Source: Lysobacter sp. cf310 | GTDB taxonomy: Bacteria > Pseudomonadota > Gammaproteobacteria > Xanthomonadales > Xanthomonadaceae | Length of the DNA stretch: 64,000 nucleotides | Assembly (NCBI RefSeq): GCF_900114355.1 | Contig: NZ_FOSS01000001.1 | Coordinates: 645,386-709,385 of the forward strand | Direction: 5' to 3' | In this document: piece after piece, positions 10,855-34,039 of the stretch | Layout of the letters: every line of letters starts with the position of its first letter | Position numbering within the stretch: position 1 is the stretch's first letter | Notes under the pieces: generated by a model | Seen by the model: only the letters and a program-made list of their open reading frames with translations | Database searches by the model: none | What the model was told of the DNA's origin: nothing | Position numbers and translations under genes: made by a program

Positions 10855-10909
10855 GGATGGGTTCTCGTCGATGGGCATGGAGGGAAGGAAAGAGGGAAAG
10901 CGCCGCCGC

Positions 10910-11488: not shown

Positions 11489-11492
11489 GCGC

Positions 11493-14257: not shown

Positions 14258-14286
14258 GGCAGGTGACTCGATCGGGATTCGAGTTT

Positions 14287-14305
14287 GATGATAATGATTC
14301 TCATT
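14287..14305 (-). promoter_or_regulatory. Fur box upstream of hemP
   Basis: On the minus strand AATGAGAATCATTATCATC matches the 19-bp palindrome AATGAGAATnATTCTCATT at all but two specified positions. It ends 30 bp upstream of the hemP ATG, where an iron-loaded Fur dimer would block RNA polymerase. The whole haem cluster is therefore probably iron-repressed. Confidence 0.88.
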
Positions 14306-14391
14306 TGCCAGTCAACACCTGTTTACACCGCCGGTCGGGGCGTAAGCAGGCGGCACCCCGCCGCCGGGGCGCCGGATCGGCCCGAACGGGC

Positions 14392-15360: not shown

Positions 15361-15544
15361 GACGTGCTCCGATGACGACCTATCAGGGGCGCATGCTAAC
15401 CGGGCGGGCGTTAGGGCCGTAACTAGAGAAGAGGCGTAACGAGCAACCAGTCGAAGCCGGCTCTTACTAGTCACTGATTTGGCTTTCTACTAGCTCCTGC
15501 AGCTCCTGACTCGTCTCGTTAAGCCACCGCCCGGCGCAACCGGC

Positions 15545-15550
15545 TACAAT
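15545..15550 (+). promoter_or_regulatory. -10 box upstream of the Mn riboswitch
   Basis: TACAAT stands ~20 bp before the first conserved riboswitch bases, so transcription should start near 15557 and include the whole aptamer. No convincing -35 is seen. Confidence 0.6.
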
Positions 15551-15559
15551 GCCCCCACT

Positions 15560-15715
15560 TCCTCCTCCGGGGAGTAGCCCACCCGCCGCCGATCCGGCAT
15601 GCGGGGACCTGCGTCAACACACTTGGCCCACCGGCCATGGCGCAGGAGCGGCAGCCAGCGCGCGACTTCGAGTCCGCGCCAGCGACCACGGGCAAGACCG
15701 AAGGCAGGCGTTGCG
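15560..15715 (+). ncRNA. yybP-ykoY manganese riboswitch
   Basis: The leader has the hallmarks of this aptamer: GGGGAGTAGCC at 15569, the internal conserved GTCAACACACTTGGCCC at ~15614-15630, and the 3' part GGCAAGACCGAAGGC at ~15691-15705. The yybP-ykoY class binds Mn2+ and switches on exporters of the MntP, TMEM165 (UPF0016) and P-type ATPase families. The gene 65 bp downstream is a TMEM165/GDT1 protein, an expected partner, which supports the call independently of the sequence match. Confidence 0.88.
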
Positions 15716-15781
15716 CGTACCCGGGTCGGGCCGTGCGGCGTTTGCCTTCGCCTCCGCGCGAAGCCCGGCCCCGGAGTTCCG

Positions 15782-16357
15782 ATGGATACCTTCCCGCTGG
15801 CCACCGCCGCCCTGTCGACCGGCACGGTCGCGCTCGCCGAAATCGGCGACAAGACCCAGTTGCTGGCCCTGCTGCTGGCCGCGCGCTTCCGCCGTCCCTG
15901 GCCCATCGTCGCCGGCATCCTGGTCGCAACCCTGCTCAACCATGCCCTGGCCGCCTGGCTGGGCGCCCTGGTCGCGCAGTGGCTGCAACCTTCGGTGCTG
16001 CGCTGGATCGTCGCCGGCAGCTTCCTGGCGGTGGCGCTGTGGACGCTCAAGCCCGACAAACTCGACGGCGAAGGCGAGCGCCTGCCCGCGCGCGGTGCCT
16101 TCATCGCCACCACCCTCGCCTTCTTCGTCGCCGAGATCGGCGACAAGACCCAGGTCGCGACCGTGTTGCTGGCCGCGCGCTATTCGCCGCTGTGGGAAGT
16201 CGTGGCCGGCACCACCGCGGGCATGCTGCTGGCCAACGTGCCGGTGGTGCTGCTGGGCAGCCGCTTCGCCGATCGCCTGCCGCTGAAGGCCGCGCGCACG
16301 GTCGCGGCGGTGGTGTTCGCGGCGCTGGCGCTGTGGGTGGCGGTGCGCGGGATCTGA
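15782..16357 (+). CDS. TMEM165/GDT1 (UPF0016) family manganese exporter
   Basis: 191 residues, six predicted membrane helices arranged as two homologous halves, each with the signature EIGDKTQ (residues ~20-26 and ~118-124). Its acidic residues coordinate Mn2+ or Ca2+ in this family; bacterial members such as MneA export Mn2+ and protect against manganese excess. The start is set by ATGGATACC, 65 bp after the riboswitch aptamer. A longer upstream in-frame stretch overlaps the riboswitch and is not coding. Confidence 0.93.
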   Translation: MDTFPLATAALSTGTVALAEIGDKTQLLALLLAARFRRPWPIVAGILVATLLNHALAAWLGALVAQWLQPSVLRWIVAGSFLAVALWTLKPDKLDGEGERLPARGAFIATTLAFFVAEIGDKTQVATVLLAARYSPLWEVVAGTTAGMLLANVPVVLLGSRFADRLPLKAARTVAAVVFAALALWVAVRGI

Positions 16358-16464
16358 GCCGGGCCCGTGCGACCCGGATCCGGCCGGGCCGCGACGCGGC
16401 GGCGGGCGCCCTGCCCTCGCCGCCGCACGCGCGCTATGCTCGGGCAGCTCAACGGGGAGACACC

Positions 16465-17601
16465 ATGCACGCCACGGGCGAACGCCTGCGCGAGATCGCG
16501 GTATCGCTGTTGTCGCGGCCCGACGAGATCATGCTCGAGATCGGCGCCGGCGGCGAGCTCATGGTCGCGCGCCTGCGCGCGGTGCTCGCGGCGATGCTGC
16601 TGGTGCTGCCGCCGCTCAACGCGATCGGCGGCGGCACCATCCAGGAAACCCTGATCGGCCTGGGCGGGGCGATCTTCGTCAACGTGTTCGCGCAGCTGTG
16701 GCTGGTGCTGGCGCGGCGGCCGCGGCGCTACCGCTGGCTGCCGTTCGCGACCGCCGGCTTCGACGTCACCGCCACCACCCTGGTGCTGATCGCACTGGCC
16801 CTGCAGCACCTGCCGGCCGGCCTCAACAGCCTGATCGTGTGGTGCGGTTACCTGCTGTCGATCGTGCTCACCGCGCTGCGCAGCGACGGCCGCGTGACCC
16901 TGTTCGCGGGCGGCCTGGCGATCGTGCAATACACCGCGCTGGTGCTGGCGGTGTTCGCCCTGGCGTCCTCGCCGGAGCAGCTCATTTCCAGCGACTACGG
17001 CGCCGTCACCCCCGGCGGCCAGGGCCAGCGCGTGGTGCTGCTGATGATGGTGGCCCTGATCACGGCCATGGTCGTGTACCGCATGCAGCGCCTGATCGAG
17101 ATGTCCGGCACCGACGGTCTGACCCGGCTGCCGAACCGGACCTGGCTGGTGCACCGCATCCAGCGCCTGTTCGACGCCGTGCGCCACGACGGCGGCAGCC
17201 TGACCCTGGCCCTGATCGACCTGGACCACTTCAAGCGCATCAACGACGACAACGGCCACCATGCCGGCGACCGCGCCCTGCGCCACGTGGTCTCGGTGCT
17301 GCGCGAGCAGTCCGGATCGAGCGAATGGCTGGTCCGGCTGGGCGGCGAGGAATTCGTGCTGCTGCTGCGCAAGCCCCTGGGCACGGCCTGGGAGCAGGTC
17401 GACGCGATCCGCCAGGTCCTGGCCGAGCGCCCGTTCGAGCCCAGCCGCGGCGCCGAGCCGCTATACCTGACCTTCAGCGCCGGTCTGGCCGGCTACCCGC
17501 AGGAGGGCTCGGACCTGTCGCGCCTGCTGCGCCGCGCCGACCGCCGCCTGCAGCAGGCCAAGCAGCAGGGCCGCAACCGCGTGGTCGCGCGCGACACCTG
17601 A
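16465..17601 (+). CDS. Membrane-bound diguanylate cyclase (GGDEF)
   Basis: 378 residues. Five or six membrane helices (about 35-205) precede a GGDEF domain (~213-375) that makes cyclic di-GMP from two GTP. The active-site loop is GGEEF (293-297) and the metal-binding LIDLDHFKRIND is intact, so it should be active. The usual inhibitory RxxD site five residues before GGEEF is absent (GSSE), so no product inhibition is expected at that site. A good Shine-Dalgarno GGGGAGA precedes the ATG. It follows the Mn exporter gene by 107 bp. Confidence 0.92.
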   Translation: MHATGERLREIAVSLLSRPDEIMLEIGAGGELMVARLRAVLAAMLLVLPPLNAIGGGTIQETLIGLGGAIFVNVFAQLWLVLARRPRRYRWLPFATAGFDVTATTLVLIALALQHLPAGLNSLIVWCGYLLSIVLTALRSDGRVTLFAGGLAIVQYTALVLAVFALASSPEQLISSDYGAVTPGGQGQRVVLLMMVALITAMVVYRMQRLIEMSGTDGLTRLPNRTWLVHRIQRLFDAVRHDGGSLTLALIDLDHFKRINDDNGHHAGDRALRHVVSVLREQSGSSEWLVRLGGEEFVLLLRKPLGTAWEQVDAIRQVLAERPFEPSRGAEPLYLTFSAGLAGYPQEGSDLSRLLRRADRRLQQAKQQGRNRVVARDT

Positions 17602-17742
17602 ACCGGGCGCGCGGCTTGCCGCGACGCGGACCCGTGGACTAGGCTGCGCCTCCGGCCGCGAAAAAGGCCGGCGGCCGCGCTCGGCGTGGTCCAATAACGA
17701 TAATTTCGCCGCCGGGGCCCCGGACGGCTCGGGGAGAACTGA

Positions 17743-19119
17743 GTGGATTCGATCGTCCGGGTGTTATTCGGCCTGTTTGGTTTGGCGGTGCTGGTCGGCA
17801 TCGCATGGCTGTTCTCCAACAACAAGCGCCGGGTCGACTGGAAGCTGGTTGCCACCGGCGTGTCCCTGCAGATCGGCTTCGCGGCGCTGGTGCTGCTGGT
17901 GCCGGGCGGCAAGGACGTGTTCGACGGCATCGGCCACGGCTTCGTGACCGTGTTGAGCTTCGTCGGCAAGGGCTCGGAGTTCATCTTCGGCAACCTGATG
18001 GACGTCAAGACCTACGGCTTCATCTTCGCCTTCCAGGTGCTGCCGACCATCATCTTCTTCGCCGCCCTGATGGGCGTGCTGTACCACCTGGGCGTGATGC
18101 AGGCGATCGTGCGCGGCATGGCCTGGGCGATCACCAAGGTCATGCGCGTGTCCGGCGCCGAGACCACCAGCGTCTGCGCCAGCGTGTTCATCGGCCAGAC
18201 CGAGGCGCCGCTGACGGTGCGCCCCTACATTCCGAAGATGACCGAGTCGGAGCTGATCACGATGATGATCGGCGGCATGGCCCATATCGCCGGCGGCGTG
18301 CTCGCGGCCTACGTGGGCATGCTCGGCGGCGGCGATCCGGAACAACAGGCCTTCTACGCCAAGCACCTGCTCGCCGCCTCGATCATGGCCGCGCCGGCGA
18401 CCCTGGTGGTCGCCAAGATCCTGATCCCCGAAGTCGGCGAGCCGCTGACCCGCGGCACCGTGAAGATGGAAGTGGAAAAGACCTCCAGCAACATCATTGA
18501 CGCGGCCGCCGCCGGCGCCGGCGACGGCTTGCGCCTGGCGCTGAACATCGGCGCGATGCTGTTGGCCTTCATCGCCCTGATCGCGCTGGTCAACGGCCTG
18601 ATCGGCGGCGTCTGGGCCTCGCACCTGATGATCCCGAACGGCTACGACAGCGCGCATGGCGCGTTCACCTACTGGCTCGCGCCCAGCCTGCAGGACGGCT
18701 GGTTCTCGCTGTTCGGCACGCGTCCGGAACTGTCGCTGCAATCGCTGCTGGGCCACCTGCTGGCGCCGCTGGCCTGGGTGATCGGCGTACCCTGGCAGGA
18801 CGCGACCACGGTCGGTTCGCTGATCGGCCAGAAGGTCGTCATCAACGAGTTCGTGGCCTATCTGCAGTTGGCCGACATCGTCAACGGCAAGACCGCCGGC
18901 GTGGCCCTGAGCGACGAAGGCCGCCTGATCGCGACCTACGCCCTGTGCGGTTTCGCCAACTTCAGCTCGATCGCGATCCAGATCGGCGGCATCGGCGGCC
19001 TGGCCCCCGAGCGTCGCGCCGACCTGGCCCGCTTCGGCCTGCGCGCGGTGCTCGGCGGTTCGATCGCGACCTTCATGACCGCGACCATCGCCGGCGTGCT
19101 CACCCACTTCTCGAGCTGA
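17743..19119 (+). CDS. nupC: Concentrative nucleoside transporter (NupC/CNT family)
   Basis: 458 residues with about ten membrane helices. CNT hallmarks are the gate segment (NVPFLLG type, here SVFIGQTEAPLTVRPYI), the NEFVAYLQL motif (INEFVAYLQLADIV) and ALCGFANFSSIAIQIGG near the end. The family couples uptake of nucleosides to Na+ or H+. Translation starts at GTG (17743) after GGGGAGAAC; a GATAAT -10 (17699-17704) lies upstream. The following sugar-kinase gene starts 3 bp after the stop, indicating one operon for nucleoside salvage. Confidence 0.94.
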   Translation: MDSIVRVLFGLFGLAVLVGIAWLFSNNKRRVDWKLVATGVSLQIGFAALVLLVPGGKDVFDGIGHGFVTVLSFVGKGSEFIFGNLMDVKTYGFIFAFQVLPTIIFFAALMGVLYHLGVMQAIVRGMAWAITKVMRVSGAETTSVCASVFIGQTEAPLTVRPYIPKMTESELITMMIGGMAHIAGGVLAAYVGMLGGGDPEQQAFYAKHLLAASIMAAPATLVVAKILIPEVGEPLTRGTVKMEVEKTSSNIIDAAAAGAGDGLRLALNIGAMLLAFIALIALVNGLIGGVWASHLMIPNGYDSAHGAFTYWLAPSLQDGWFSLFGTRPELSLQSLLGHLLAPLAWVIGVPWQDATTVGSLIGQKVVINEFVAYLQLADIVNGKTAGVALSDEGRLIATYALCGFANFSSIAIQIGGIGGLAPERRADLARFGLRAVLGGSIATFMTATIAGVLTHFSS

Positions 19120-19122
19120 CCC

Positions 19123-20088
19123 ATGAGCCGGGTCGTCGTCGTCGGTTCCTTCAACGTCGATCACGTCTGGTCGGTCGCGGCGCTGCCGCGACCGGGCGAG
19201 ACCCTGGCCGGCCAGTACCACACCGGCCCCGGCGGCAAGGGCTTCAATCAGGCGACCGCCTCGGCGCGCGCCGGCGCCAGCACCAGTTTCGTGTGCGCGC
19301 TGGGCGAGGACGCGGGCGGGCAGCTCGCGCGCGCGCTCGCCACCGCCGACGGCATCGACCTTCGCGACCTGCGCAGCGACGCGCCCACCGGCACCGCCGG
19401 CATCTATGTCGATCGCGACGGCCGCAACTCCATCGTGATCGGCCCCGGCGCCAACGCCGAGCTGTCCGTCGCCTACGTCGATCTGCAGCGCGAGGCCATC
19501 GCCCAGGCGCGCGTGGTGCTGGGTCAGCTGGAATCGCCGCCGGCATCGGTCGCGGCCGCGTTCGCGCATGCGCGCGGCGCCGGCGCGCTGGCCCTGCTCA
19601 ATCCGGCCCCGGCCGACGCGGTGGCCACGCCGGAGCTGTGGACGCTGGCCGACGTGATCACGCCCAACGAAACCGAGTTCTGCGCCCAGCTCAAGCGCCA
19701 CACCGGCGCGGTGGTCGATCCCGAGCGTCTGGCCGCGCTGGCCGACGACGAGCTGCATGCCGACTGCCGGCGCCTGCTGCCGCACGGCAGCGTGGTGGTG
19801 ACCCTGGGCTCGGCCGGCTGCTTCGTCTCGCACGCCGACGGCCGCCTGCACGGCGACGCGCAGGCCTGTTACCGGGTCGCGGCCGCGCCGGTGCGCGCGG
19901 TCGACACCACCGGCGCCGGCGATGCCTTCAACGGCGCCCTGGCCGCATCCTTGGCGCGCGCGCCCGACGCCGCCTTCGCCGACCACGTCGCCTACGCCAC
20001 CCGCTACGCCGGCCTGTCCACCGAGCGCTCCGGCGCCGCCTCGGCGATGCCGCGCGACAGCGAGCTGCGCGCGCGCTTCGGCGCGTGA
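19123..20088 (+). CDS. rbsK: Ribokinase-like PfkB family sugar kinase
   Basis: 321 residues. N-terminal VVVGSFNVDHVW and PGGKGFNQATASARAG are the substrate-binding PfkB signature 1, and DTTGAGDAFNGALAASL is signature 2 with the catalytic Asp; ITPNETEF is the ribokinase-type nucleotide contact. It probably phosphorylates ribose (or a nucleoside) released from nucleosides imported by the transporter encoded 3 bp upstream. The substrate is inferred from context and family, so the symbol is tentative. Confidence 0.88.
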   Translation: MSRVVVVGSFNVDHVWSVAALPRPGETLAGQYHTGPGGKGFNQATASARAGASTSFVCALGEDAGGQLARALATADGIDLRDLRSDAPTGTAGIYVDRDGRNSIVIGPGANAELSVAYVDLQREAIAQARVVLGQLESPPASVAAAFAHARGAGALALLNPAPADAVATPELWTLADVITPNETEFCAQLKRHTGAVVDPERLAALADDELHADCRRLLPHGSVVVTLGSAGCFVSHADGRLHGDAQACYRVAAAPVRAVDTTGAGDAFNGALAASLARAPDAAFADHVAYATRYAGLSTERSGAASAMPRDSELRARFGA

Positions 20089-20285: not shown

Positions 20286-22409
20286 ATGCCCCCTCGCCAC
20301 CTGCTCGCCAGCGCCCTGCTGGCCGTCCTCGCCGCACCCGTCGCCCACGCCGCCGAGGAGGCCACCGACCTCGACCGCGTCACCGTCTCGGCCAGCACCA
20401 GCCGCATGCCCGACTCCGAGGCCGCGCTGCCGAACACGATCACCGTGATCGACCAGGAGCAGTTGCGTCAGCAACTCGCGGTCACCCAGGACATATCGCA
20501 GGTGCTGGCCAACCTGATCCCCTCGTTCTCGCCCTCGCGCCAGAAGCTCACCAACGGCGGCGAAACCCTGCGCGGGCGCAAGCCGCTGTACCTGGTGGAC
20601 GGCGTGCCGCAGTCCACGCCGCTGCGCGAAGGCGGACGCGACGGCCATACCGTCGATCCGGCCATGATCGAGCGCATCGAGGTCATCCATGGCGCCAACG
20701 CGCTGCAGGGCCTGGGCGCCTCGGGCGGCATCATCAACATCATCACCAAGCGCGCCCCGCGCCAGGACGGCGAGACCTTCCAGGACGTGAGCATCGGCGC
20801 CAGCACCGCGCTGCCGAACCGCAGCGACAGCACCGGCTATCGCGCCTCCTATCTGTTCGGCACCCGCAGCGGCGCCTTCGATTTCGTCGGCGGCCTGTCC
20901 TACGCCAGCGAGGGCCTGTACTACGACGGCAACGGCGACGCGATCGCGGTCAACGACATCCAGGGCGACCTGATGGACGCGCGCAGCCACAACCTGTTCG
21001 CCAAGTTGGGCTGGGAGCTCGACGACGAGCGCCGCCTGCAACTCACCGCCAGCCGCTACGAGCTGCAAGGCAACAACGACTACATCACCGTCAACGGCGA
21101 CCTCGCCACCGGCCGGCTCGCGACCTCCGCGCGCGGCAGCCGCGAGGGCGAAGGCGCGCGCAACCGCTCGACCTCGGTGGCGTTGGACTACAGCGACAAG
21201 TCGCTGGCCGGCGGCTATTTCCAGGCGCAGTTGTATTGGGTGGACTTCAACGGCCTGTATGGCGCGTCCGACTGGGGCGATTTCTGGCGCGACGGCCGCG
21301 ACCTCCATTGGTGGGACCAGTCGCAGAACGTGTCCGAGAAGCTCGGCGGCAAGTTCAGCTGGTCGCGCGACAACCTGTTCGATCAGCGCCTGCGCGTGAC
21401 GCTGGGCCTGGATTGGGGCCGCGACACGACCTATCAGGAACTGGTGGTGGCGCGCATGAACTGGGTGCCGGAAACCCGTTACGAATCCTGGTCGCCGTTC
21501 GTGCAGGCCGAGTGGTGGATCACCGACAAGATCATGCTGACCGGCGGCCTGCGCTACGAGCGCGGCAAGCTCAAGGTCGACGACTTCACCACCATTCCCG
21601 CCAATGCCGGCGGCAGCCGCTTCGTCGCCGGCGGCACGCCCAAGACCAGCGAAACCCTGCCGAACTTCGGCGTGGTGTTCGAGGCCACCGATTCGCTGAA
21701 GTTCTACGCCTCCTACTCCGAGGGCTACACCGTCGCCGACATCGGCCGGGTGCTGCGCGGCATCACCGCGCCGAACCAGCGCGTCGACAAGCTGGTGGAT
21801 CTGTCGCCGGTGGTGTCGGACAACCGCGAGATCGGCGTCGATTTCGATAACGGCCGCTGGCTGGCGCACCTGGCCGCGTACTGGTCGGACTCCGACCTGG
21901 GCTCGCGCCTGGCCTTCGACACCGCCACCCAGAGCTACAACGTGGTGCGCGAGCGCACCGAAATCCGCGGCATCGAAGGCAACGTCGCGTTCCAGTTCTC
22001 CGAAGCCGGCCGCGTCGGCCTGGGCTACGCCGGCGCCAAGGGCCGCTACGACAGCAACGGCGACGACCGCGTCGACAGCGACCTGCCCGGCATCAACATC
22101 AGCCCCGACCGCGTGACCGCGTTCTGGGACCAGACCTGGACGCCGAAGATCTCCACCCGCCTGCAGGGCAGCCGCTCGCTGGACCGCGACTTCGACCTGC
22201 GCGGCACCCAGGTCGCCAGCGCCGACGGCACCACCACCGTCGATCTGCAGGCGCGTTTCGCCCTGCCGGTGGGCAGCCTGAGCCTGGGCATCGAGAATCT
22301 GTTCGACGAGCAGTACATCACCTACTACTCACAGAGCACGCCGCGCGCCGACACCTATGTCGCCGGTCGCGGGCGCGTGTTCAGCGCGAGCTGGTCGCAC
22401 CGCTTCTAA
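20286..22409 (+). CDS. TonB-dependent siderophore receptor
   Basis: 707 residues with a signal peptide (MPPRHLLASALLAVLAAPVA, cleaved near AHA). TonB box DLDRVTVSAS, then a plug domain (to ~155; LRGRKPLYLVDGVPQS, IERIEVIHGANALQGLGASG) and a 22-strand barrel ending SASWSHRF with terminal Phe. Its GASGGIINIITK resembles receptors for ferric hydroxamate or carboxylate siderophores such as aerobactin; the ligand cannot be read from sequence. A Fur box lies just upstream. The next gene, 27 bp away, encodes a PepSY membrane protein of the kind thought to reduce imported ferric siderophore. Confidence 0.93.
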   Translation: MPPRHLLASALLAVLAAPVAHAAEEATDLDRVTVSASTSRMPDSEAALPNTITVIDQEQLRQQLAVTQDISQVLANLIPSFSPSRQKLTNGGETLRGRKPLYLVDGVPQSTPLREGGRDGHTVDPAMIERIEVIHGANALQGLGASGGIINIITKRAPRQDGETFQDVSIGASTALPNRSDSTGYRASYLFGTRSGAFDFVGGLSYASEGLYYDGNGDAIAVNDIQGDLMDARSHNLFAKLGWELDDERRLQLTASRYELQGNNDYITVNGDLATGRLATSARGSREGEGARNRSTSVALDYSDKSLAGGYFQAQLYWVDFNGLYGASDWGDFWRDGRDLHWWDQSQNVSEKLGGKFSWSRDNLFDQRLRVTLGLDWGRDTTYQELVVARMNWVPETRYESWSPFVQAEWWITDKIMLTGGLRYERGKLKVDDFTTIPANAGGSRFVAGGTPKTSETLPNFGVVFEATDSLKFYASYSEGYTVADIGRVLRGITAPNQRVDKLVDLSPVVSDNREIGVDFDNGRWLAHLAAYWSDSDLGSRLAFDTATQSYNVVRERTEIRGIEGNVAFQFSEAGRVGLGYAGAKGRYDSNGDDRVDSDLPGINISPDRVTAFWDQTWTPKISTRLQGSRSLDRDFDLRGTQVASADGTTTVDLQARFALPVGSLSLGIENLFDEQYITYYSQSTPRADTYVAGRGRVFSASWSHRF

Positions 22410-22436
22410 ACCGCAGCCGCCGCCATCGAGCCCAGC

Positions 22437-23528
22437 ATGACCTCACGCCAGGCACATCCGATCAAGCATCGCGTCCGCGCGGCGCTGAAGTGGCTGCACC
22501 TGTGGCTGGGCCTCGGCGTGGGCCTGGTGTTCGCGCTGGTCGCGCTGTCGGGCACCGTGCTCGCGTTCCAGCGCGAGCTGCTGGCATGGTCGCATCCGCA
22601 ACTGAGCGAACACGCGCCGCCGTCGCCCGCGCAGCGCGAAGCCGCGCTCGCGCGCATCGTCGCCGACTGGCAGGCGCAGGGCCTGAGCTCGCTGGACCTG
22701 CCGACCGCGCAGCTGCCGGTGTGGCAGGGTTATTTCCCCGATGGCGAGCGCCGCTACTTCGGCGGCGCCAGCGGCGAACTGCTGCTGGTGCGCAACAAGG
22801 GCAACGACTGGGTGCTGTGGCTGCGCGATTGGCATACCCATCTGCTGACCGGCAAGGCCGGCGAGCAGGTGCTGGGCGTGGTCGGCCTGATCGCCCTGTT
22901 CCTGCTGTTGAGCGGTCTCTATCTGTGGTGGCCGCGCTGGTCCGCGCTGGGCGCCAGCCTGCGCTGGTACCGCGGCCCGCCGACCCGGCGCTGGTTCAGC
23001 TGGCACCGCGGCGCCGGCGTGCTGTGGCTGCCGCTGACCCTGCTGGCGGTGCTGACCGGTGTCGGCATGGTCTACGACGGCGCCACCCGCAGCGGCCTGC
23101 GTTTCGCGTTCGGCGACGGCGAAGACGCGCGCAAACCGCCCAAGCTGACCGCCAGCGACCGCCCGATCGACTGGGCCGCGCTGCTGCGCGCCGCCGACGG
23201 CCGCCTGCCCGGCGCCGAACTGCGTCGCATCGGCCTGCCCAAGGGCGACAGCGGCCTGGTCTCGATCCGCATGCGCGCGGCCGGCGAGTGGCACCCGGTC
23301 GGGCGCAGCGTGGTCTGGCTGGACCCCTATCGCGTGGCCGTGCTCGGCGTGCACGACGCCACCGCCCAGGAGCGCGGCGCGCGCGTCAGCGAGGCCCTGT
23401 ATCCGCTGCACGGCGGCTTCGTCGGCGGGCGGGTCTGGCAGGCGCTGGTGGCCTTCACCGGCCTGGTCCCGAGCTTCTTGCTGGTCACCGGCTTCCTGTT
23501 CTGGCGCCGGCGCACCGCCCGTCGCTGA
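22437..23528 (+). CDS. PepSY-associated membrane protein (putative siderophore reductase)
   Basis: 363 residues with four membrane helices: ~20-42 (LGLGVGLVFALVALSGTVLA), ~140-160 (VLGVVGLIALFLLLSGLYLWW), ~185-210 and ~335-355. Conserved histidines flank the helices (WLHLWLG, WHTHLLTG, WHRGAGV, LHGGF), as in PF03929 proteins, where they may hold haem. Such proteins are common next to TonB siderophore receptors and some reduce ferric siderophores in the inner membrane. It follows the receptor gene by 27 bp and should share its Fur control. Confidence 0.88.
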   Translation: MTSRQAHPIKHRVRAALKWLHLWLGLGVGLVFALVALSGTVLAFQRELLAWSHPQLSEHAPPSPAQREAALARIVADWQAQGLSSLDLPTAQLPVWQGYFPDGERRYFGGASGELLLVRNKGNDWVLWLRDWHTHLLTGKAGEQVLGVVGLIALFLLLSGLYLWWPRWSALGASLRWYRGPPTRRWFSWHRGAGVLWLPLTLLAVLTGVGMVYDGATRSGLRFAFGDGEDARKPPKLTASDRPIDWAALLRAADGRLPGAELRRIGLPKGDSGLVSIRMRAAGEWHPVGRSVVWLDPYRVAVLGVHDATAQERGARVSEALYPLHGGFVGGRVWQALVAFTGLVPSFLLVTGFLFWRRRTARR

Positions 23529-25758: not shown

Positions 25759-26808
25759 TCATTGTGCGGAGGGCACGCCCGTATCGACTGTGCCGACGGC
25801 CGCCGCCGGCTCGTTCCAGATGCGCGTCCACATCGCCGGCAAGCGATCGGCAGCCTGCCACGGCCATTGCAGCTGCTGAGCGGATACCTCGCTCCAACCG
25901 TCGGTGTCGCGTCGGGCAACCACGAAGCGGAAGTTGTAGTCCGGCTCCAGCCCCATGCGCAGATCGCTGAGCACCAACTGGCCGTCGCGTTGCTCGGCCT
26001 TCATGAAGCCGTGGTTGAACCAGGCCAGACGCGCGACGGCCGGATACGCCGCGACCTGGCGATAGGCGTCCACGTCGGAGCGGTAGGCCTGGAAACGCAT
26101 GGGACCGCGATCCGCGTACAGCGAACGTTCGCCCTCCACATAGCCTTGCGGCGTCATCGCCACCACCCGCCACAGCAGGATGTTGAACGGCATCGGCACC
26201 GAGAAGCGCGGCGCATCGGCCAGGCCCATCGCCACCAATGCCGGTTGCGCGGCGCGCTCGGCGCGCTGCTTGGCCCATAGCGAACCGCCCAGGTACAGCG
26301 TGCTCAAGGCCAGGCCCAACAGCAGCGCCGGCTGCGCGCTGGCCTTCGCGCGCGCGAACCAGGCCCAGATGCAGGCCGCCAGCAGCCACACGGTGTAGAG
26401 CGGATCGATGATGAAGATGCTGGACCACATGACCGGCCGCACCGTCAACGGCCACAGCAACTGCGTGCCGTAAACGGTGAACGCGTCCAGTATGGGATGC
26501 GTGAGCAAGGCCGCCTGCATCGCCCAGAACCAACGCCGCGGCGATTGCGCCACGCGGCCGCCGCGCCGGCGGAACCAGGCCCACACGGCCCAGGCCACGA
26601 ACGGCAGCACCAACAGCGAATGGCTGAGGCTGCGGTGCCAGGTCATGCGCGCGACCGGATCGTCGGTGAGCAGGTTCACCGGTATCACGTCCAGGTCCGG
26701 CAAGGTGCCGAGGGCGGCGCCGGCCAGCAGGGCGGCGCGACGATGGCCGGCCGGGGCGATGGCGGCGCTGAGCGCGGCGCCGAGCACGATCTGAGTCAGG
26801 GAATCCAT
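25759..26808 (-). CDS. YdjM/LexA-regulated-type membrane metal-dependent hydrolase
   Basis: 349 residues. The N-terminal half is the PF04307 domain with motifs MDSLTQIVLGAALS, GTLPDLDVIP, WHRSLSHS and LLTHPILDAFTVYGTQLLWP; the Asp/His residues would hold a metal ion. Five or six membrane helices lie between residues 1 and ~190. The C-terminal half is soluble with no recognised domain. The family acts at the inner membrane; true substrates are not known. It is a single gene. Confidence 0.9.
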   Translation of the reverse strand: MDSLTQIVLGAALSAAIAPAGHRRAALLAGAALGTLPDLDVIPVNLLTDDPVARMTWHRSLSHSLLVLPFVAWAVWAWFRRRGGRVAQSPRRWFWAMQAALLTHPILDAFTVYGTQLLWPLTVRPVMWSSIFIIDPLYTVWLLAACIWAWFARAKASAQPALLLGLALSTLYLGGSLWAKQRAERAAQPALVAMGLADAPRFSVPMPFNILLWRVVAMTPQGYVEGERSLYADRGPMRFQAYRSDVDAYRQVAAYPAVARLAWFNHGFMKAEQRDGQLVLSDLRMGLEPDYNFRFVVARRDTDGWSEVSAQQLQWPWQAADRLPAMWTRIWNEPAAAVGTVDTGVPSAQ

Positions 26809-26916: not shown

Positions 26917-27306
26917 CTAGCGCTGGAACGGGCGGATCAAGCCGACCGGATTGCCCTCCGGGTCCTGGATCATCGCGAAGCTGTAGCCGTCGGCGTCGGC
27001 GGGCGCCATGTACTGACGCCCGCCGGCCGCGATCGCCGCGTCGATGGTGGCCTGCAGATCGTCGACCAACAGATAGAAGTTGTGCCCCGGTTCGAAGCCG
27101 GGCGTGCTCGGGTCGGCTTGGCCGATACCGCCCAGCAACGGCTGCATGCGTACCGGGAAATGCACGTAGGCGAAGCCGGCATCGCCGTCCTGGTAGCGCC
27201 AACCGAACACGCGACTGTAGAAGGCCCGCATCGCCGCCTGATCCCGGGCGATGATCTCGAACATCGCCACCGGATGCCGGTTCACGGACGCGTCGCTGTC
27301 GCTCAT
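26917..27306 (-). CDS. VOC (glyoxalase/bleomycin-resistance) family protein
   Basis: 129 residues forming one pair of beta-alpha-beta-beta-beta modules: VAMFEIIARDQAAMRAFYSRVFGW at the N-terminus and FAMIQDPEGNPVGLIRPF at the C-terminus. Metal ligands probably include Glu17 and Glu near DPEGN. The start codon overlaps the stop of the ferritin-like gene (ATGA), so it ends the six-gene array that begins with the BtuB-like receptor. VOC enzymes range from lyases to dioxygenases; no substrate is assignable. Confidence 0.85.
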   Translation of the reverse strand: MSDSDASVNRHPVAMFEIIARDQAAMRAFYSRVFGWRYQDGDAGFAYVHFPVRMQPLLGGIGQADPSTPGFEPGHNFYLLVDDLQATIDAAIAAGGRQYMAPADADGYSFAMIQDPEGNPVGLIRPFQR

Positions 27307-28355
27307 CCCATGCCTCCCTGGGTTTGCACGTACTCGTAGCTGGGGCCGACGGTGCGGCCGGTGCCGTCGTCTATATCGGTCTGCATCATCGCCACCGCCA
27401 GCACGCGCAGGTCGTACATCAGGCCGATCGCGCGGTTCAAGGATTGCGGCGTGCCGTTGAAGGCCTGGTGCAAGGCGTTGAGCAGGGCGCTGTAGTTGTA
27501 GGCGAACTGCTCGATGCGGCTGCGCGCCTGGGTGCCGGGCGCGAAGTCGGCGATCTTGCAGTTCGGCTTGAGCGGCCAGATCGCCGAGGGATCGAACTCG
27601 ATCGGCGCGCCGGCGTAGGCATAGCCCTCGGGCGTGGTGATGAGCTCGCGCCCGGCCACGATCGATCCGAACATGTAGTAGTGCGCGGGATCGCCGGGCG
27701 ACTGGAACGGCGTGACCGAACTGCCCTCGCCTTCGAGCTTGATGATCTCGATCGCGTGGCAGGCCGACTCCGGGCCCTCGATCGGGAACAGCTTGTCGGG
27801 CGGGAACCAGGCGCTGTCCACCACCTGCGGCGGCGCGCTGGTCTTGACGAAGATGCCCTGGCCGAGCTCACGGATGCGCTGCTGGATGGCGTCGTAGAAC
27901 TCGCCGATGGTGGCGTATTCGGGTTCGCCGCCGGCCTGGAGCATGCGTTGACGGATCGGGATCTCGTCCTCGGGCTGTTCGATCGCCATGAACACGTGCT
28001 TGACCAGGCCCATCGAGAAGGCCTCGATGCCGACCCGCAGGCCGTCGCCGATGTCCATCGGCAGCGGCCCGGGATACTTGGGCACGAAGTCGCGGGTGTT
28101 GATCTGCGGGCTGCCGCCGATCGCGATCAGGATGTTGGCGGCGATGCTCATATGCAGCATCTCCTGCACGATGATGCTGCGGATCATCGCGGCGATGCGG
28201 CGGTTGCTGCCCGGCCGCAGCGACAGCATCGCGGTCAGATAGGGTGGGATGGTGCTGTGCTCCAACTCGACCGCGCTCTGCAGGTACTGGTGCAGATCGA
28301 CCGCGGTTTCGGCGCTGCGAATGCCGCTGAGGATTTCCGGACGCAGGCGGATCAT
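27303..28355 (-). CDS. Ferritin-like domain protein, matches the C-terminal half of VioB/RebD
   Basis: 350 residues. A PF12902 ferritin-like domain starts at the N-terminus: helix 1 carries Glu32 with Tyr39 (VELEHSTIPPYLTAML), helix 2 has the metal motif E65xxH68 (IIVQEMLHMSIAANILIAIG), and the loop after it (GGSPQINTRDFVPKYPGPLP) matches VioB in position. VioB, RebD and StaD join two indole-pyruvate imines to make chromopyrrolic acid or its precursor, and the ferritin-like part is their C-terminal third. Here it is a separate protein, and the gene overlaps the end of the preceding gene by 4 bp (ATGA). The pair totals 1002 residues, close to a whole VioB. Confidence 0.85.
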   Translation of the reverse strand: MIRLRPEILSGIRSAETAVDLHQYLQSAVELEHSTIPPYLTAMLSLRPGSNRRIAAMIRSIIVQEMLHMSIAANILIAIGGSPQINTRDFVPKYPGPLPMDIGDGLRVGIEAFSMGLVKHVFMAIEQPEDEIPIRQRMLQAGGEPEYATIGEFYDAIQQRIRELGQGIFVKTSAPPQVVDSAWFPPDKLFPIEGPESACHAIEIIKLEGEGSSVTPFQSPGDPAHYYMFGSIVAGRELITTPEGYAYAGAPIEFDPSAIWPLKPNCKIADFAPGTQARSRIEQFAYNYSALLNALHQAFNGTPQSLNRAIGLMYDLRVLAVAMMQTDIDDGTGRTVGPSYEYVQTQGGMG

Positions 28356-30310
28356 GGCGTGTCTCCCGGTTCTTGGCCCTGCCCCGCCTTGCGGCGCGCC
28401 AGGTACTGCAGGACGAAGGCGGACTTGCCCGCGCTTTGCAGCGGCGCCAGATCGACCGCGGGGGGTTCTGGCGTGGCAGTCGCGGCGGTCGCGGTCACCG
28501 GCACCGTCGGCGCCAGCGGCGGCTTGCCCAACAGCGGCAATCCGTCGGGCCCGGGCGTGTCCAGCCAGCGCAGGATGGTGGCGCGGTCGCCGGCGCTGAG
28601 GTCGCGCGTGACCGGCATGTGGTTGGGATCGCGCCGCGGCAGCGAGAACGCCAGGCGCAGCGCCTTCAGCCGCGTGATCACCGAGTCGTAGCTGCGCAGA
28701 TCGACCACGTAGCGGCTCATGATCGGATAGAGATTGCCGTACTGGGTAAACAAGGGCTGGATGTCGTCGTACCAGGTCGGCGCCGCCGGCGGCTCGCTCT
28801 TGCTGTAGACCAGCACGCTCACGTAGTTGAGCGGATTGGAAACGTAGCCCGAAGGCTGCGCGGCGAGCTGATAGCCGATGCCGTAGAGCTGGCCGGCGAT
28901 GTAGCCGCGCGGCCGCCCGGGGCCGGCGTCGGACGCGCGCAATTCGACCTGGGCACGGCCGGCCGCGTCGGTGGTGGCGGTGGCGGCGTAGGCGATCGCG
29001 TCGGCGGGCGTACCGATATCGGGAATCGACGCATGCGGCCGCGTCGGCGGCGTCATCGTGTCGCCGCCGCCGGAGCCGCCCATGAAGCCCTCGGTGGCGC
29101 TGAGCGCGATGCCGGCGCCGGCCAGCGGCTGGCCGTAGCGGGTGGCGTAGAACTCCAGTCGATCGCGCTCGCCCGGATCGATGCGGAACACGAAGTCGTC
29201 GGCACGCAGGTACTGGCCGTCCAGCGACTCCTGCATCAGCACCTTGTAGAAGCCCGAGGGTTGCAGCGACAGCAGCAGCAAGGGGCAGGCCGGCAGGAAG
29301 CTCTGCGCGCGCGGGTTCGCGCTGAGGTCGAAATCGATCACGCCCGCGGTCTGCGCGTACCAGTCCGGCGTTTGATACGGCACTTCGCCGATCAGCGCGA
29401 CCGAGTTGACCGGAATGTCCGCGACCAGCTCGGCCAGCGGATTGAAGCTCAATACGCCGATCACCAGCGGGCCGAGATCCTCGAAGCCGCTGTCGGCACT
29501 CTTGATCGGCAGCGTGTTGCCCAGATCCAGGCTCAACGTACTCAGGTCGGACGCGACCTGGCCCTGGGCATCGTAGACGCCGTTCTTGGGCGCCAGCGGC
29601 GACTTCCCCGACGGCATCGCGATCATCTGCCGGCCGCGCACGAAATGCTTGGGCTCGCCGCGCAGATAGGGCCCGATGCTGCCGACCACGTGACCCATGG
29701 TGTAACGCGGGATGGTGGCGTCGCGGCCGTAGCCGTAGACGTTGAACGCGATCGACAGCAGCCCGTCCTCGGTCGCCTCACGCAACGCGCGCAGCAGCGG
29801 CGAGTCCAACGCCGCGTCCCAGGCGATGTCTTCCAGCACCGACTGGTAGTTCGCGGCCAGCTTCTGGTCCATGGGCACGCCGGCCTTCTGACGTTGCCAC
29901 AGATTGCAGAACGCGACCGGTTTGAACTCGCCCTGCAGCAGGGCCTTGCGCGTCGCGTCCAGCAGGCGCAGCTGCATGCCCCAGATCTGCGACACCATCT
30001 GCTGCTGCGGGTCCAGATCGACCAGTTTGCCGGGCGCACGCTGGTCGGCGTTCTCCAGCAGCATGCCGATCGCCGGATCGTCGCTGGCGCTGCGTAGGGC
30101 CTTGCCGGCGAGCGCGCCGCCGGTCACCGCGCAATCCAGGAAACGGAAGATGCCGGTGCCCTCGGGGTTCCAGCTGCCGTTCTGGTTGTATTGCTGGTAC
30201 TCGGGTACGAAGGAATCGTTCTGGAAGGTGCGGACGTCGTTGTTGATGGTCGAGACGTCGGCCTGGAACCAGCCGCTGAAATGCAAGCGCGGCGCGTCTA
30301 GGTAACTCAT
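28352..30310 (-). CDS. Protein matching the N-terminal part of VioB/RebD
   Basis: 652 residues. The opening MSYLDAPRLHFSGWFQADVS closely follows the VioB opening (LDFPRIHFRGW), and the region at ~525-585 (YGNLYPIMSRYVVDL, MPVTRDLSAGDRATILRWLD) matches the VioB linker just before its ferritin-like domain. That region also looks like a cytochrome-c-type domain without its CxxCH haem site. The middle (~100-500) is only loosely related. Signal peptide and membrane helices are absent. The next gene, overlapping by 4 bp, supplies the ferritin-like part. A role in making a coupled aromatic natural product is inference; no tryptophan oxidase gene is near. Confidence 0.75.
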   Translation of the reverse strand: MSYLDAPRLHFSGWFQADVSTINNDVRTFQNDSFVPEYQQYNQNGSWNPEGTGIFRFLDCAVTGGALAGKALRSASDDPAIGMLLENADQRAPGKLVDLDPQQQMVSQIWGMQLRLLDATRKALLQGEFKPVAFCNLWQRQKAGVPMDQKLAANYQSVLEDIAWDAALDSPLLRALREATEDGLLSIAFNVYGYGRDATIPRYTMGHVVGSIGPYLRGEPKHFVRGRQMIAMPSGKSPLAPKNGVYDAQGQVASDLSTLSLDLGNTLPIKSADSGFEDLGPLVIGVLSFNPLAELVADIPVNSVALIGEVPYQTPDWYAQTAGVIDFDLSANPRAQSFLPACPLLLLSLQPSGFYKVLMQESLDGQYLRADDFVFRIDPGERDRLEFYATRYGQPLAGAGIALSATEGFMGGSGGGDTMTPPTRPHASIPDIGTPADAIAYAATATTDAAGRAQVELRASDAGPGRPRGYIAGQLYGIGYQLAAQPSGYVSNPLNYVSVLVYSKSEPPAAPTWYDDIQPLFTQYGNLYPIMSRYVVDLRSYDSVITRLKALRLAFSLPRRDPNHMPVTRDLSAGDRATILRWLDTPGPDGLPLLGKPPLAPTVPVTATAATATPEPPAVDLAPLQSAGKSAFVLQYLARRKAGQGQEPGDTP

Positions 30311-30402: not shown

Positions 30403-31395
30403 TTACTTCTTCTGGCCTGCTGGCTCCTTGTCCGGGCAATCGCCGTCGAACAGGCAGCACCACTCCGGCTCGACCGGACACATCTGCGCGACCTGGCCCC
30501 AGGTCTCGGCCGGATCCGGGCGCTCGGCGCGGAAGCTGGTGTAGTTCTGGCTCACGATCGGCGCGTTGGGCGGATCGGTGGGCGAGCCGGAGAAGAAGAA
30601 CGACTGCGGATGCCGGTAGCGCGGCGCGTTGGCGTCCATCGGATAGTCGGACGTCGGCTCGCGCCAGAACGCGTAGCCGAACAGGATCTTCTGCGGCCCG
30701 ACCTCGCGCGCGTAGGCCTGCACGGCACCGTTGAGATGGGTGCTGCGCTGGGCGTCGTAAGGCAGGTGCTTGATGAAGTCCAGGCGCGGCGGATGGTTCT
30801 TGGGCGAGAACTTGCAGCACTGCGGCGTGCCGGGCGGACGGTCGGCGTAGCGCAGGAAGTAGGCCTTGTTGCCCAGCGAGACGAAGGCGCAGGTGAAGTT
30901 GTTGGTCGAGGGAAAGATCGGCAGGCACTGTTTTTCGTAGTACTCCATCATCGCGCCTTCGCCGTCCTTGTCGGCGGGCACGTAGGTGGAGTCGTAGTAG
31001 GTGGCGCCGTAGGAGACCTGATAGTCGGCCGGCGTCAGACCCGCCGGCGGCGAGGTGTAGGGCGGCGGGTACTGGTCGTAGTTGGCGAACACCCGGTACA
31101 TGGTCCAGCCGCTGGTCCACCACTTCGGATACAGGGGATCGCTGGGCTCGCCCGGCTTGCGCGGATAGACGCAGCGCGAGGCGGGCACGCAGCCTTGGTC
31201 GTTGTGGACGCCGCCGGTGTAGTAGATGTGGCGCTCGGCCGGCGTCTGCTTCGCCTTCGCGGCCTCGACCCTGGGCCCGGACGCCATCGCCATGCCGGCC
31301 GTCAGCGACAGCGCGATCGCGATCCAGACCGCGGTGCGTCCTGCCGGCGGTGCTGTTGGGTGCTGGGACATTGCGCTTACCGAGATCCTGCTCAT
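30403..31395 (-). CDS. Unrecognised secreted Cys-containing protein
   Basis: 330 residues. GAGGAG 7 nt upstream supports the ATG at 31395. A signal peptide is present (AVWIAIALSLTAGMAMASG). The mature part is rich in Tyr, Pro and Trp, with paired cysteines (GCVPASRCV, QCLPIF, FTCAF, QCCKFS, MCPVEPEWCCLFDGDC) that suggest a disulfide-rich periplasmic or extracellular protein. No domain is recognised. The start overlaps the stop of the VTT gene (ATGA) and the VioB-like gene begins 92 bp after the end, so it sits in the same array. It could bind or modify the product of the array. Confidence 0.75.
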   Translation of the reverse strand: MSRISVSAMSQHPTAPPAGRTAVWIAIALSLTAGMAMASGPRVEAAKAKQTPAERHIYYTGGVHNDQGCVPASRCVYPRKPGEPSDPLYPKWWTSGWTMYRVFANYDQYPPPYTSPPAGLTPADYQVSYGATYYDSTYVPADKDGEGAMMEYYEKQCLPIFPSTNNFTCAFVSLGNKAYFLRYADRPPGTPQCCKFSPKNHPPRLDFIKHLPYDAQRSTHLNGAVQAYAREVGPQKILFGYAFWREPTSDYPMDANAPRYRHPQSFFFSGSPTDPPNAPIVSQNYTSFRAERPDPAETWGQVAQMCPVEPEWCCLFDGDCPDKEPAGQKK

Positions 31396-32114
31396 GGCGC
31401 CACTCCTCGATCGTGTTCACGGGATACAGCGGAGCCCGCGCCGGCCAGCAGCCGGCGCAGGAGGATGCGATGGATCAGCCACACCAGGGCCGGCAGGGCG
31501 AGCATGGTCGGCAGCATCGCGGCCGGATGCGGTTCGCTCAGGCCCAGCCAGGCGCTGGCGCCGTACAAGGCGCCGACCGCGCACGACGACAACGCGGCAT
31601 GTGCGAACGCGGCCAGCGGCGGCACCCGCCACACGCCCGCCAGCAAGGCGCTGAGCTCGGCCAGCACCGGCAGCGGCCGTGCGGCGACGATCCACCACAA
31701 GGCCTGGCGCTGCGCCGACGCGCGCGCGCGATCCCACAAGGCCGCGCCGATCCAGCGGCGCAGGCGCGCTTCGGGCAGCAGCCGCCCCAAGACGTACCCC
31801 AGCGCGAACGCGAGCAGACAGCCGGTCGCCACCGCGAGCCCGCCCCACAGCGGCCCCAGCCCCCAGCACAGCAGCATGCCGATCACGCTGCTCGGCACCG
31901 GCAGCGCGACGTCGGCCACCAGCAGCGCGATACCCAACGCCGCCAGCCACAGGCGCGCGTCCTGCGCGGACAGCCAGGCCGGCGCGGCGCGATCGAAGGC
32001 CTCGCCCCACAGCGCGAACGGCACCAGCACGCAGGCCAGCAACAAAATCGCGAACAGGCCCAGGCGCCACCACGCCGAACGTTCCGCATAGGCGGCGGGC
32101 CCGCGGCGGCTCAT
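31392..32114 (-). CDS. VTT-domain (DedA/TVP38-type) membrane protein
   Basis: 240 residues with about five membrane segments (GLFAILLLACVLVPFALWG, LAALGIALLVADVALPVPSS, LAVATGCLLAFALGYVLGRLL, and two more by residue ~215). LPVPSSVIGMLLCWGLGPLWG is the re-entrant loop with the Pro and Gly pattern of VTT proteins, and VAARPLPVLAELSALLAGV is the second half. DedA-like proteins flip or move lipids or act in envelope homeostasis. Both ends overlap neighbours by ATGA: the BtuB-like receptor upstream and the secreted protein downstream. Confidence 0.85.
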   Translation of the reverse strand: MSRRGPAAYAERSAWWRLGLFAILLLACVLVPFALWGEAFDRAAPAWLSAQDARLWLAALGIALLVADVALPVPSSVIGMLLCWGLGPLWGGLAVATGCLLAFALGYVLGRLLPEARLRRWIGAALWDRARASAQRQALWWIVAARPLPVLAELSALLAGVWRVPPLAAFAHAALSSCAVGALYGASAWLGLSEPHPAAMLPTMLALPALVWLIHRILLRRLLAGAGSAVSREHDRGVAP

Positions 32115-34039
32115 TGCAGCGACCAACGCAGGGCCAGACGCAGTCTGCGCCCCGGCGATCGCGTGCCGATGGCTTCCTCGCCGCGCGCATCGGCGAGGTT
32201 GTCGATCGCCAACAGCAGCTGCGCCGGCCCCCATTGCTGGCGCAGGCTGAGATCCAGCGTGGTCGTCGCGTCCAGACGGCGCTCGCCGGTGGGGATGGAA
32301 GAGTCGTCGCGGCGGCCGAGGTGACGCAGCGCCAGCGACAGCTCGCGGCGCTCGCCCAGCGGCAGGGCCAGGGAGGCGCTGAACTGCGCGCGCGGACGGT
32401 AGCGCAGCCGGGTTTCGCCGCCGGCGCCATCGCCGGCCTGCACGTGCATCCAGCTGCCTTCGAACTGCAGCCGCCAGTCGTTGGCGTAACGCCGCCCGAG
32501 GCGCCACTCCAGGCCGCGCGTCTCGATGCGCGCGCGGTTCACCAACTGCGGCGGCGGTCCGGCATCGAAATCGATCAGATCGCGATAGCGCGCGTCGAAC
32601 AGGGTCAAGCGCAGCCCCCAGCGCGCGTCAGCCGAGCTCGCGTAATAGAGCTCGCGGTGCAGCGCGCGTTCGGGCTTGAGCGCGGGGTTGCCGACCAGCG
32701 GATGGGCCAGCGCATAGAAGCTGGGCAACTTGGACGAACGCGCGACCGACAGCCCCCACTCGCCGCGCTCGCCGGCCAGCGCGCGCTGCAGCGACAGCAT
32801 CGGATGGCTGGCGGCGTCGCCTCGGTCGGGATGCTCGTAGCGCAGCCCGCCCTGCGCGGTCCAGGGCCCGGCCTGCCACCGCGCTTCGGCGAAGGCGCTG
32901 GCGGTGCTGCGACGCAGGGCGAAGCCCGCCGGCAGCACGAAGCCGCCGAAGTCGATCAGGCTGTCGAGATCGCCCCGCTCGCGCTGGTACTGCGCGCCCA
33001 CGGTGAACATCAGCTGGTCGCCGCCCAGCAGCAGCCAGTGCAGCTGCGCTTCGTCGCGGCGATAGTCGCCGAGGCTGCGCATCGCCGGCAGGCCGAAGGG
33101 ATCGCGCAGGCCCGGCGCGACCCCGGGCGTGTCTTCCTCGCCGTCGCGCGTCAACGTCGCCAGTTGCGCTTCGATCGCGCCGCCGTGGCGCAGCCGGTAT
33201 TCGCCGCGCAAGGACAGCTGGCGGCTGCGGCTGTGGCGGCGATCCAACGCGCGGATCACCGCGTAAGCGTCGCCGCCGCTGTCGTCGGGAAAACCGAGAT
33301 TGCGACTGTCGCTGTAACGCGCGGCCGCGTGCAGGCGGGTGCGTTCGCCCAGCGCGCCGTCCCAGCCCAGGTTGGCGGCGCGCACGCGATTGCGCGCGCC
33401 GGCATCGCCGCTTTCCTCGCGCTGGGTGGCGCTGGCGCGCAAGCCGGCGCCCGACCACGATGCCTGCGCCGCGCGCAGACCGTCACCGCCGATGCTGGTG
33501 CCGAGCGCGGCGCCGGACGCGGCGCGGCGGGTGAAGATATGGATCAGCCCCGCGATCGCCTCGGCGTTGACCACGCTGGCGTTGCCGCGAACGATCTCGA
33601 TGCGCTCGATGTCGTCGCTGGACAGGGTGTTGAGATCGACCGCGCTGCCGCGCGAGGACAAGGGATCGTTCTGGCGCACGTGATCGATCAGGACCACCAC
33701 GTGGCTGGGATCGGCGCCGCGCAGATACAGCGCGCCGAAGCCGCCGCTGCCCGCGCCGCGATCGATCACCACGCCGGCCTGGCGCGCCAGGATGTCGGCC
33801 GCGCTCAGGCCCTGCAGCGCGTCCAGATCGGCGCGCTCCAGCACCGTCACGTGCTGGCTCGCGGCCGCGGCGGTGACCGGCAAAGCGCTGGCGCTGACGC
33901 GTTCTCGGTCCAGGGTATGGATGTCGTCGGCCGCTTGCGCCGCGCGCAGCGGCGACGCGGCCAGCAGCAGCGCGATCGCCAGCCATGGGCGTGCGCCATA
34001 CGCAACAGGCATCAAGGCATCCGGATCCTTCCGAACCAT
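32111..34039 (-). CDS. TonB-dependent receptor, BtuB-like
   Basis: 642 residues from the ATG at 34039; an in-frame ATG at 34012 is an alternative start and either leaves an intact signal peptide (ARPWLAIALLLAASPLRAAQA). The plug domain includes ADILARQAGVVIDRGAGSGG, LYLRGADPSHVVVLIDHVRQ and IEIVRGNASVVNAEAIAG, similar in length and pattern to BtuB-type receptors, and the barrel ends with LALRWSLQ. At ~640 residues it is a small receptor of the BtuB/cobalamin class. A long structured leader precedes it. It heads the six-gene array; substrate is inferred, cobalamin or another chelate. Confidence 0.8.
   Translation of the reverse strand: MVRKDPDALMPVAYGARPWLAIALLLAASPLRAAQAADDIHTLDRERVSASALPVTAAAASQHVTVLERADLDALQGLSAADILARQAGVVIDRGAGSGGFGALYLRGADPSHVVVLIDHVRQNDPLSSRGSAVDLNTLSSDDIERIEIVRGNASVVNAEAIAGLIHIFTRRAASGAALGTSIGGDGLRAAQASWSGAGLRASATQREESGDAGARNRVRAANLGWDGALGERTRLHAAARYSDSRNLGFPDDSGGDAYAVIRALDRRHSRSRQLSLRGEYRLRHGGAIEAQLATLTRDGEEDTPGVAPGLRDPFGLPAMRSLGDYRRDEAQLHWLLLGGDQLMFTVGAQYQRERGDLDSLIDFGGFVLPAGFALRRSTASAFAEARWQAGPWTAQGGLRYEHPDRGDAASHPMLSLQRALAGERGEWGLSVARSSKLPSFYALAHPLVGNPALKPERALHRELYYASSADARWGLRLTLFDARYRDLIDFDAGPPPQLVNRARIETRGLEWRLGRRYANDWRLQFEGSWMHVQAGDGAGGETRLRYRPRAQFSASLALPLGERRELSLALRHLGRRDDSSIPTGERRLDATTTLDLSLRQQWGPAQLLLAIDNLADARGEEAIGTRSPGRRLRLALRWSLQ

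Follow-up and report, generated by a model that had tools for sequence, protein, structure and literature searches.

Architecture of the gene pair and relation to VioB and RebD

The subject of this analysis is a pair of overlapping genes on the reverse strand of a 64,000-nucleotide stretch of the genome of Lysobacter sp. cf310 (contig NZ_FOSS01000001.1, positions 645,386 to 709,385; this whole stretch is called the window), the products of which resemble, in order, the two parts of the single-chain enzymes VioB, which takes part in making the purple pigment violacein, and RebD. An initial annotation had described two genes joined by a common ATGA, and both the genes and the overlap were confirmed from the open reading frames and the shared bases:

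28352-30310, reverse strand: large chain gene, 652 amino acids, related to the first ~600 residues of VioB/RebD
27303-28355, reverse strand: small chain gene, 350 amino acids, ferritin-like (PF12902), relative of the C-terminal part of VioB/RebD
28352-28355, reverse strand: ATGA, the stop/start overlap of the large and small genes

The small chain is a member of the Ferritin-like family PF12902 (2e-62, 211.4 bits against a gathering cut-off of 22.3). No Pfam family was found for the large chain, the only NCBIfam trace of which is a match of residues 1-27 to the VioB model TIGR04492 (E 0.057, 11.2 bits). Neither chain belongs to the VioB equivalog defined by that model, which has a cut-off of 1250 bits and to which the small chain has no match at E 1. 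The structural model of the large chain is beta-rich, with a weak match to immunoglobulin- or macroglobulin-like folds at residues 364-501 and a C-terminal helical motif (YPIM...MPVTRDLS). A cytochrome-c-like origin of this region (residues ~507-588), suspected by eye from the spacing and the MP motif, was dropped because profile and family searches gave no cytochrome match, just weak PsbU- or HEPN-type ones.

Family profiles were compared with a set of seven single chains, comprising two VioB proteins above the family cut-off (L043 and L044, which are near-identical), two chains from the family of genome G160, and three plasmid-borne chains that adjoin flavin adenine dinucleotide (FAD) oxidoreductase genes. 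With hhalign, the large-chain family aligned to this set with a probability of 99.7 over 545 columns (query 1-588 on template 1-633) and the small-chain family with a probability of 99.65 over 310 columns (template 649-1018), each half giving one unbroken alignment and the halves falling in the VioB/RebD order; the lone window proteins gave 97.4 (501 columns) and 97.7 (253 columns), respectively. The best probability among 30 column-shuffled profiles was 1.6 for the large chain and 0.5 for the small chain, and reversed profiles gave 0.4 and 0.1. Models built from 43 large chains and 43 small chains matched 7/7 of the single chains, with E values of 5.5e-12 to 9.5e-20 (computed against that set of seven) and 1.1e-12 to 2.1e-24, respectively. 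The full-length relation to VioB/RebD put forward in the initial annotation is thus upheld by family profiles far above the shuffled and reversed controls, and at this level appears secure. Both modules of VioB (iminophenyl-pyruvate dimer synthase, TIGR04492) and of the RebD/StaD chromopyrrolic acid synthases have homologues in the pair, in unchanged order, but in two overlapping genes instead of the single polypeptide of the wider VioB/RebD/StaD superfamily. The summed length of 1002 amino acids had been offered as a further sign of kinship; it does agree with the ~1005 of the L043 VioB, but this is partly coincidence, because RebD-like chains (L066-L068) have 1079-1205 amino acids and complete split large chains have 587-671.

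Features common to the pair and VioB/RebD include R8, F11 and G13 at the N-terminus of the large chain, GR at 226-227, M531, and MP..R at 565-569, together with the ferritin ligands E, ExxH, E, GEG and H of the small chain. Among the residues kept in 43/43 split and 7/7 fused rows are F11, G13, D98, R227, E361, M531, M565, P566 and R569 of the large chain, and E32, Y39, E65, M66, H68, E126, Y154, G209-E210-G211, H225 and M313 of the small chain. The latter contain a diiron-type ligand set (E, ExxH, E, E, H = E32, E65, H68, E126, E210, H225), which at the level of sequence is that of bacterioferritin. In a profile alignment, E32, E65 and H68 fall on helix A and B residues of the structure 1nf4, and E126, E210 and H225 are placed by conservation only. 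The methionine directly after E65 (M66) aligns with the EMxH methionine of 1nf4, which we take to be the heme ligand of that protein. M66 may therefore be a heme ligand across this superfamily; RebD/StaD and VioB have been described as heme proteins, which couple two imines. The centres of bacterioferritin and mini-bacterioferritin, as described in PMC13168243, consist of four glutamates and two histidines, with a heme-binding methionine in bacterioferritin. The small chain has in common with these proteins the diiron inventory and the EMxH helix, but its identity to them is low (8-20% among the rows shown), a long additional segment extends its C-terminal part, and there is no sign of a cage. 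The ferritin-like protein CC_0557 of Caulobacter (3hl1, PF12902-type) is 25% identical to the small chain in alignment. A single-sequence search of the PDB found no VioB-related solved structure, and a 2021 review (PMC9705886) gives a VioB structure as missing; no assignment of the heme and iron sites of VioB was met with in the literature consulted.

Distribution and phylogeny of the two-chain form

A scan of named genomes for relatives of the large chain yielded 33 loci, the titles of which span Gamma-, Beta-, Alpha- and Deltaproteobacteria, Myxococcota (Pyxidicoccus), Acidobacteria, Actinobacteria, Bacteroidota and Phycisphaeraceae. Family-level genomes added four loci, one of which repeats L013; 5/149 of these genomes match the large chain, the Lysobacter genome itself included. 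The large chain is also encoded in eight plasmid records (Azospirillum, Mycetohabitans, Gloeothece, Aureibacter), with the small gene adjoining in 8/8, and had no match among the phages searched. The family is rare: at E 1e-10 the large chain was detected in 2/398 Pseudomonadota genomes (again including the Lysobacter genome) and in 2/257 Bacteroidota genomes (one being the search centre, picked for having the pair), both counts being lower bounds, the former because the search missed divergent copies in G628, a 6.7-Mb gammaproteobacterium.

The survey of fused and split forms proposed in the initial annotation came out for linked, split genes: the small gene lies directly 3' of the large gene on the same strand for 39/39 large genes counted in 35 loci, at a distance of -4 to +43 bases, with an overlap of 4 bases in 18 and of 1 base in two of the 39. 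This count leaves out L005 (the window), L017 (which ends inside the large gene) and L041 (apparently degenerate), and holds one contig twice (L007 = L013) as well as four tandem second copies. The 43-row sets used for profiles and conserved residues additionally omit L030 (large gene cut at its start); L077 and L115 repeat L012, and the rows represent the genes of 42 distinct contigs plus tandem copies.

In a midpoint-rooted tree of the ferritin part (52 rows), 38 split rows lie on one side of a branch with 99/99 support and six fused rows form another group (100/100), with eight PF12902 proteins of other contexts between them. Since split and fused forms occupy separate groups, recent splitting of a VioB does not account for the window pair, which represents the standard form of a separate group found across several phyla and not one local split. 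The association of large and small chains is either old, with losses, or was formed more than once. Two genomes (G153 and G154; Pseudoduganella violacea and Massilia sp. BJB1822) carry an intact single-chain VioB as well as split pairs, so the split pair is not simply a replacement for VioB or interchangeable with it.

Two variations on the usual arrangement were observed. At four loci (L011, L016, L024, L025) the pair is immediately followed downstream by another, divergent one that shares 34-41% identity with the window pair, which suggests that the tandem pairs are paralogous enzymes of one pathway. In Nonomuraea thailandensis (L041, 5902-7935) one frame retains the two ends of the large chain but no more than the tail of the small one; the ferritin core is missing, and the frame is probably degenerate.

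Operon neighbours and linkage to ebo clusters

In the window, the pair belongs to a string of six co-directional genes in the order TonB receptor, VTT membrane protein, predicted exported protein, large chain, small chain and VOC protein, with ATGA at 4/5 junctions. The four genes around the pair are:

32111-34039, reverse strand: TonB-dependent outer-membrane receptor; overlaps the VTT gene by ATGA (start at 34039 chosen by comparison with L010)
31392-32114, reverse strand: VTT-domain membrane protein (PF09335); overlaps the exported protein gene by ATGA
30403-31395, reverse strand: predicted exported protein, 330 amino acids, 10 cysteines, hydrophobic stretch near the N-terminus, directly upstream of the pair
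26917-27306, reverse strand: small protein of the VOC/glyoxalase fold, ATGA-coupled to the small chain gene

Counts of predicted promoters and terminators do not exceed those of shuffled sequences. A relative of the VOC gene adjoins the pair in other Lysobacter-type loci, one Ramlibacter locus and two actinobacterial loci, and relatives of the TonB receptor and VTT genes are present in 7/37 other loci, all of them Lysobacter-type or Ramlibacter. Just downstream of the operon is a gene for a YdjM-family inner membrane protein (25759-26808, reverse strand), and further away (20286-23528, forward strand) a second TonB-receptor-like gene is followed by one for a PepSY-type membrane protein, as judged by eye from the translations.

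The exported protein is a conserved partner of the pair, newly noticed here. It accompanies the pair in 19/33 named loci, being encoded downstream of the pair in those of Bradyrhizobium and Shimia, and in the opened plasmid loci that have it, its gene is located 3' of the small gene or within the ebo cluster. Its identity to the window copy is 51-88% across 13 other rows. Searches of Pfam and NCBIfam assigned it to no family, and its family profile had no match in the PDB. Among 398 Pseudomonadota genomes it was found in three: the Lysobacter genome, G652 (= L012) and G628.

In some lineages the pair has a second partner, likewise new here. The ebo genes of Nostoc are required for moving the scytonemin monomer to the periplasm, and an ebo cluster also occurs within the EDB cluster of Pseudomonas fluorescens, according to PMC6282210. 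At least two Ebo-type genes adjoin the pair in 8/33 named loci (four of Chromobacterium, two of Massilia/Pseudoduganella, and those of Pedobacter and Flavobacterium) and in 4/6 plasmid loci opened of the eight records (Mycetohabitans twice, Gloeothece, Aureibacter); no such adjacency was seen in the two opened Azospirillum plasmid loci. By lineage, the neighbours are Ebo-type genes in Chromobacterium, Massilia/Pseudoduganella, Mycetohabitans and, at four loci, Bacteroidota; in Gloeothece they are of the EboB/EboD type. EboE is encoded ~5 kb from the large chain in both Bacteroidota genomes that have the latter, which are two of the 23 EboE-containing genomes among the 257. An EboE match was found in 10/30 searched genomes with the pair or the L041 remnant (that of L026 being excluded), and lies near the pair in six. 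At E 1e-8, no ebo genes were found around VioB/RebD chains or other proteins of PF12902 (17 loci, with flanks of 1.5 kb for L043 and L044). Ebo queries found nothing in the window, and the linkage therefore concerns other lineages, where it suggests that the pair may make cargo for ebo.

An ebo cluster with large-chain relatives and the exported protein is also present in G628:

L132 (G628:C48:38500-58000), 5059-19501: ebo cluster, two divergent large-chain relatives and exported protein

By hhalign, the two G628 copies align with the split family at probabilities of 99.3 and 99.1, and with the VioB set at 98.0 and 98.5. Two further proteins are encoded in this cluster: one has a hydrophobic stretch at the N-terminus and, as seen by eye, a CxxCH motif, and the other has weak, below-cut-off matches to strictosidine synthase and NHL models. 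The layout recalls that of the Pseudomonas EDB cluster as described second-hand in PMC6282210, and it may be an EDB-type cluster.

Possible function of the two chains

Homology, collinearity, linkage and ligand conservation make it probable, at somewhat better than even chances, that the products of both genes are the two chains of a single metal-dependent oxidative enzyme, cytoplasmic and of the VioB/RebD/StaD type. The small chain would be a ferritin-like helical bundle binding two irons via E32, E65, H68, E126, E210 and H225, with M66 as a probable heme ligand; the large chain would be equivalent to the VioB N-terminal module and probably contributes the substrate pocket. The two chains would bind each other, with metals bound, and the enzyme might oxidatively couple or rearrange a small aromatic, perhaps amino-acid-derived, compound, the product of which would be finished or used outside the cytoplasm. 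Export may be accomplished by the ebo cluster in several lineages; in Lysobacter, the exported protein, VTT protein and TonB receptor alone point to use outside the cytoplasm.

A narrower version of this explanation, which we consider unlikely, is that the product is the same as that of VioB/RebD/StaD, the chains dimerising indole-3-pyruvate imine or a phenylalanine or tyrosine analogue supplied by an unlinked amino-acid oxidase or transaminase. The two modules, their order and the conserved motifs are all as in VioB/RebD, but identity to VioB in the profile alignment is ~20%, and the two genomes that keep an intact VioB together with split pairs speak against a common product. The lack of a linked oxidase, remarked on in the initial annotation, stands as far as a RebO-type query can tell: this query (the FAD oxidoreductase beside the RebD-like gene of L066) found no FAD amino-acid oxidase of the VioA/RebO/StaO kind near the window pair, VioA itself not having been used as a query. 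In the same genome it gave two weak matches (37 and 34 bits), both on contig C11 (the window is on C6), and across the ten genomes searched it gave weak matches only, in seven, the best at 70 bits. In Mycetohabitans (L128, 2498-5559), genes annotated as a LodA/GoxA-type oxidase and a tryptophan 7-halogenase, located ~3.4 kb upstream of an ebo-linked split pair, favour a common product, but they are cut off from that pair by a transposase gene and are missing from the sister cluster L069. In fungi, PF12902 genes are described near lodA genes (PMC4417212).

Two other explanations, each still less probable, give the chains other roles. The ferritin-like chain could detoxify peroxide or handle iron, with the large chain as a scaffold and the TonB receptor importing an iron complex, as the ferritin fold, the diiron-type ligands and the shared gene string with TonB receptor and VTT genes (seen in the window and 7/37 other loci) would allow; the confinement of this linkage to Lysobacter-type and Ramlibacter loci, the ebo neighbours in several other lineages, and the strong full-length similarity to biosynthetic VioB/RebD all count against it. 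Alternatively, the genes may be co-regulated and their products independent, the large chain acting alone and the small chain being a separate oxidase. G628, with its large-like proteins, exported protein and ebo genes, and the PF12902 proteins found elsewhere in the absence of a large chain, are consistent with independence, but the small gene adjoins in fixed order in 39/39 cases, and the two modules are one chain in VioB/RebD.

Several observations count against a two-chain oxidase of this kind. A ferritin-like partner had been expected for every large chain, but the whole genome of G628 gave no PF12902 match at E 0.01; the pairing is therefore not universal, and large chains may act with other partners. 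Plasmid records with a small-chain relative number 167, versus eight with the large chain, and at the three annotated loci examined (L073, L125, L126; Methylobacterium, Rhizobium, Bradyrhizobium) PF12902 genes in the absence of a large chain stand directly behind a GMC oxidoreductase gene or a fragment of one, so that the domain has another kind of partner there. M66 is also kept in 8/8 other PF12902 rows and is for this reason a mark of the family, not of coupling chemistry, and E126, E210 and H225 were assigned to the iron site from sequence. Four actinobacterial genomes have EboE-like matches, but outside the examined flanks of the pair, and the Lysobacter locus differs from the ebo systems in that no EboE was found in its genome at E 1e-5, nor in 11 other Lysobacter-type and Ramlibacter genomes.

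The two-chain VioB-like oxidase is nonetheless the preferred explanation, and the pair is well supported as a two-chain branch of that superfamily within a conserved module that includes the exported protein and, in some lineages, ebo. It differs from VioB/RebD/StaD in having two chains, a separate tree group and no linked RebO-type gene, with the exported partner and, in places, ebo instead. A search of the literature by titles and the beginnings of abstracts, with subscription papers on StaD, RebD and VioB outside its scope, turned up no recognised two-gene relative of VioB and no VioB-like pair in ebo clusters. More tentatively, and with the odds rather against the whole of it, two-chain VioB-like oxidases could be the core of a widespread class of aromatic metabolites, exported (by ebo in several phyla) and finished in the periplasm by the exported cysteine-containing protein, while the entire superfamily, including VioB and RebD, would use a bacterioferritin-type diiron centre and a bis-methionine heme. 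With its two chains encoded apart, the natural form makes the ferritin-like part available for study as a smaller subunit that can be separated, with seven residues named for mutation, and the link of VioB-type chains to the exported protein and ebo supplies a definite candidate for the biosynthetic enzyme behind ebo clusters in organisms that do not make scytonemin.

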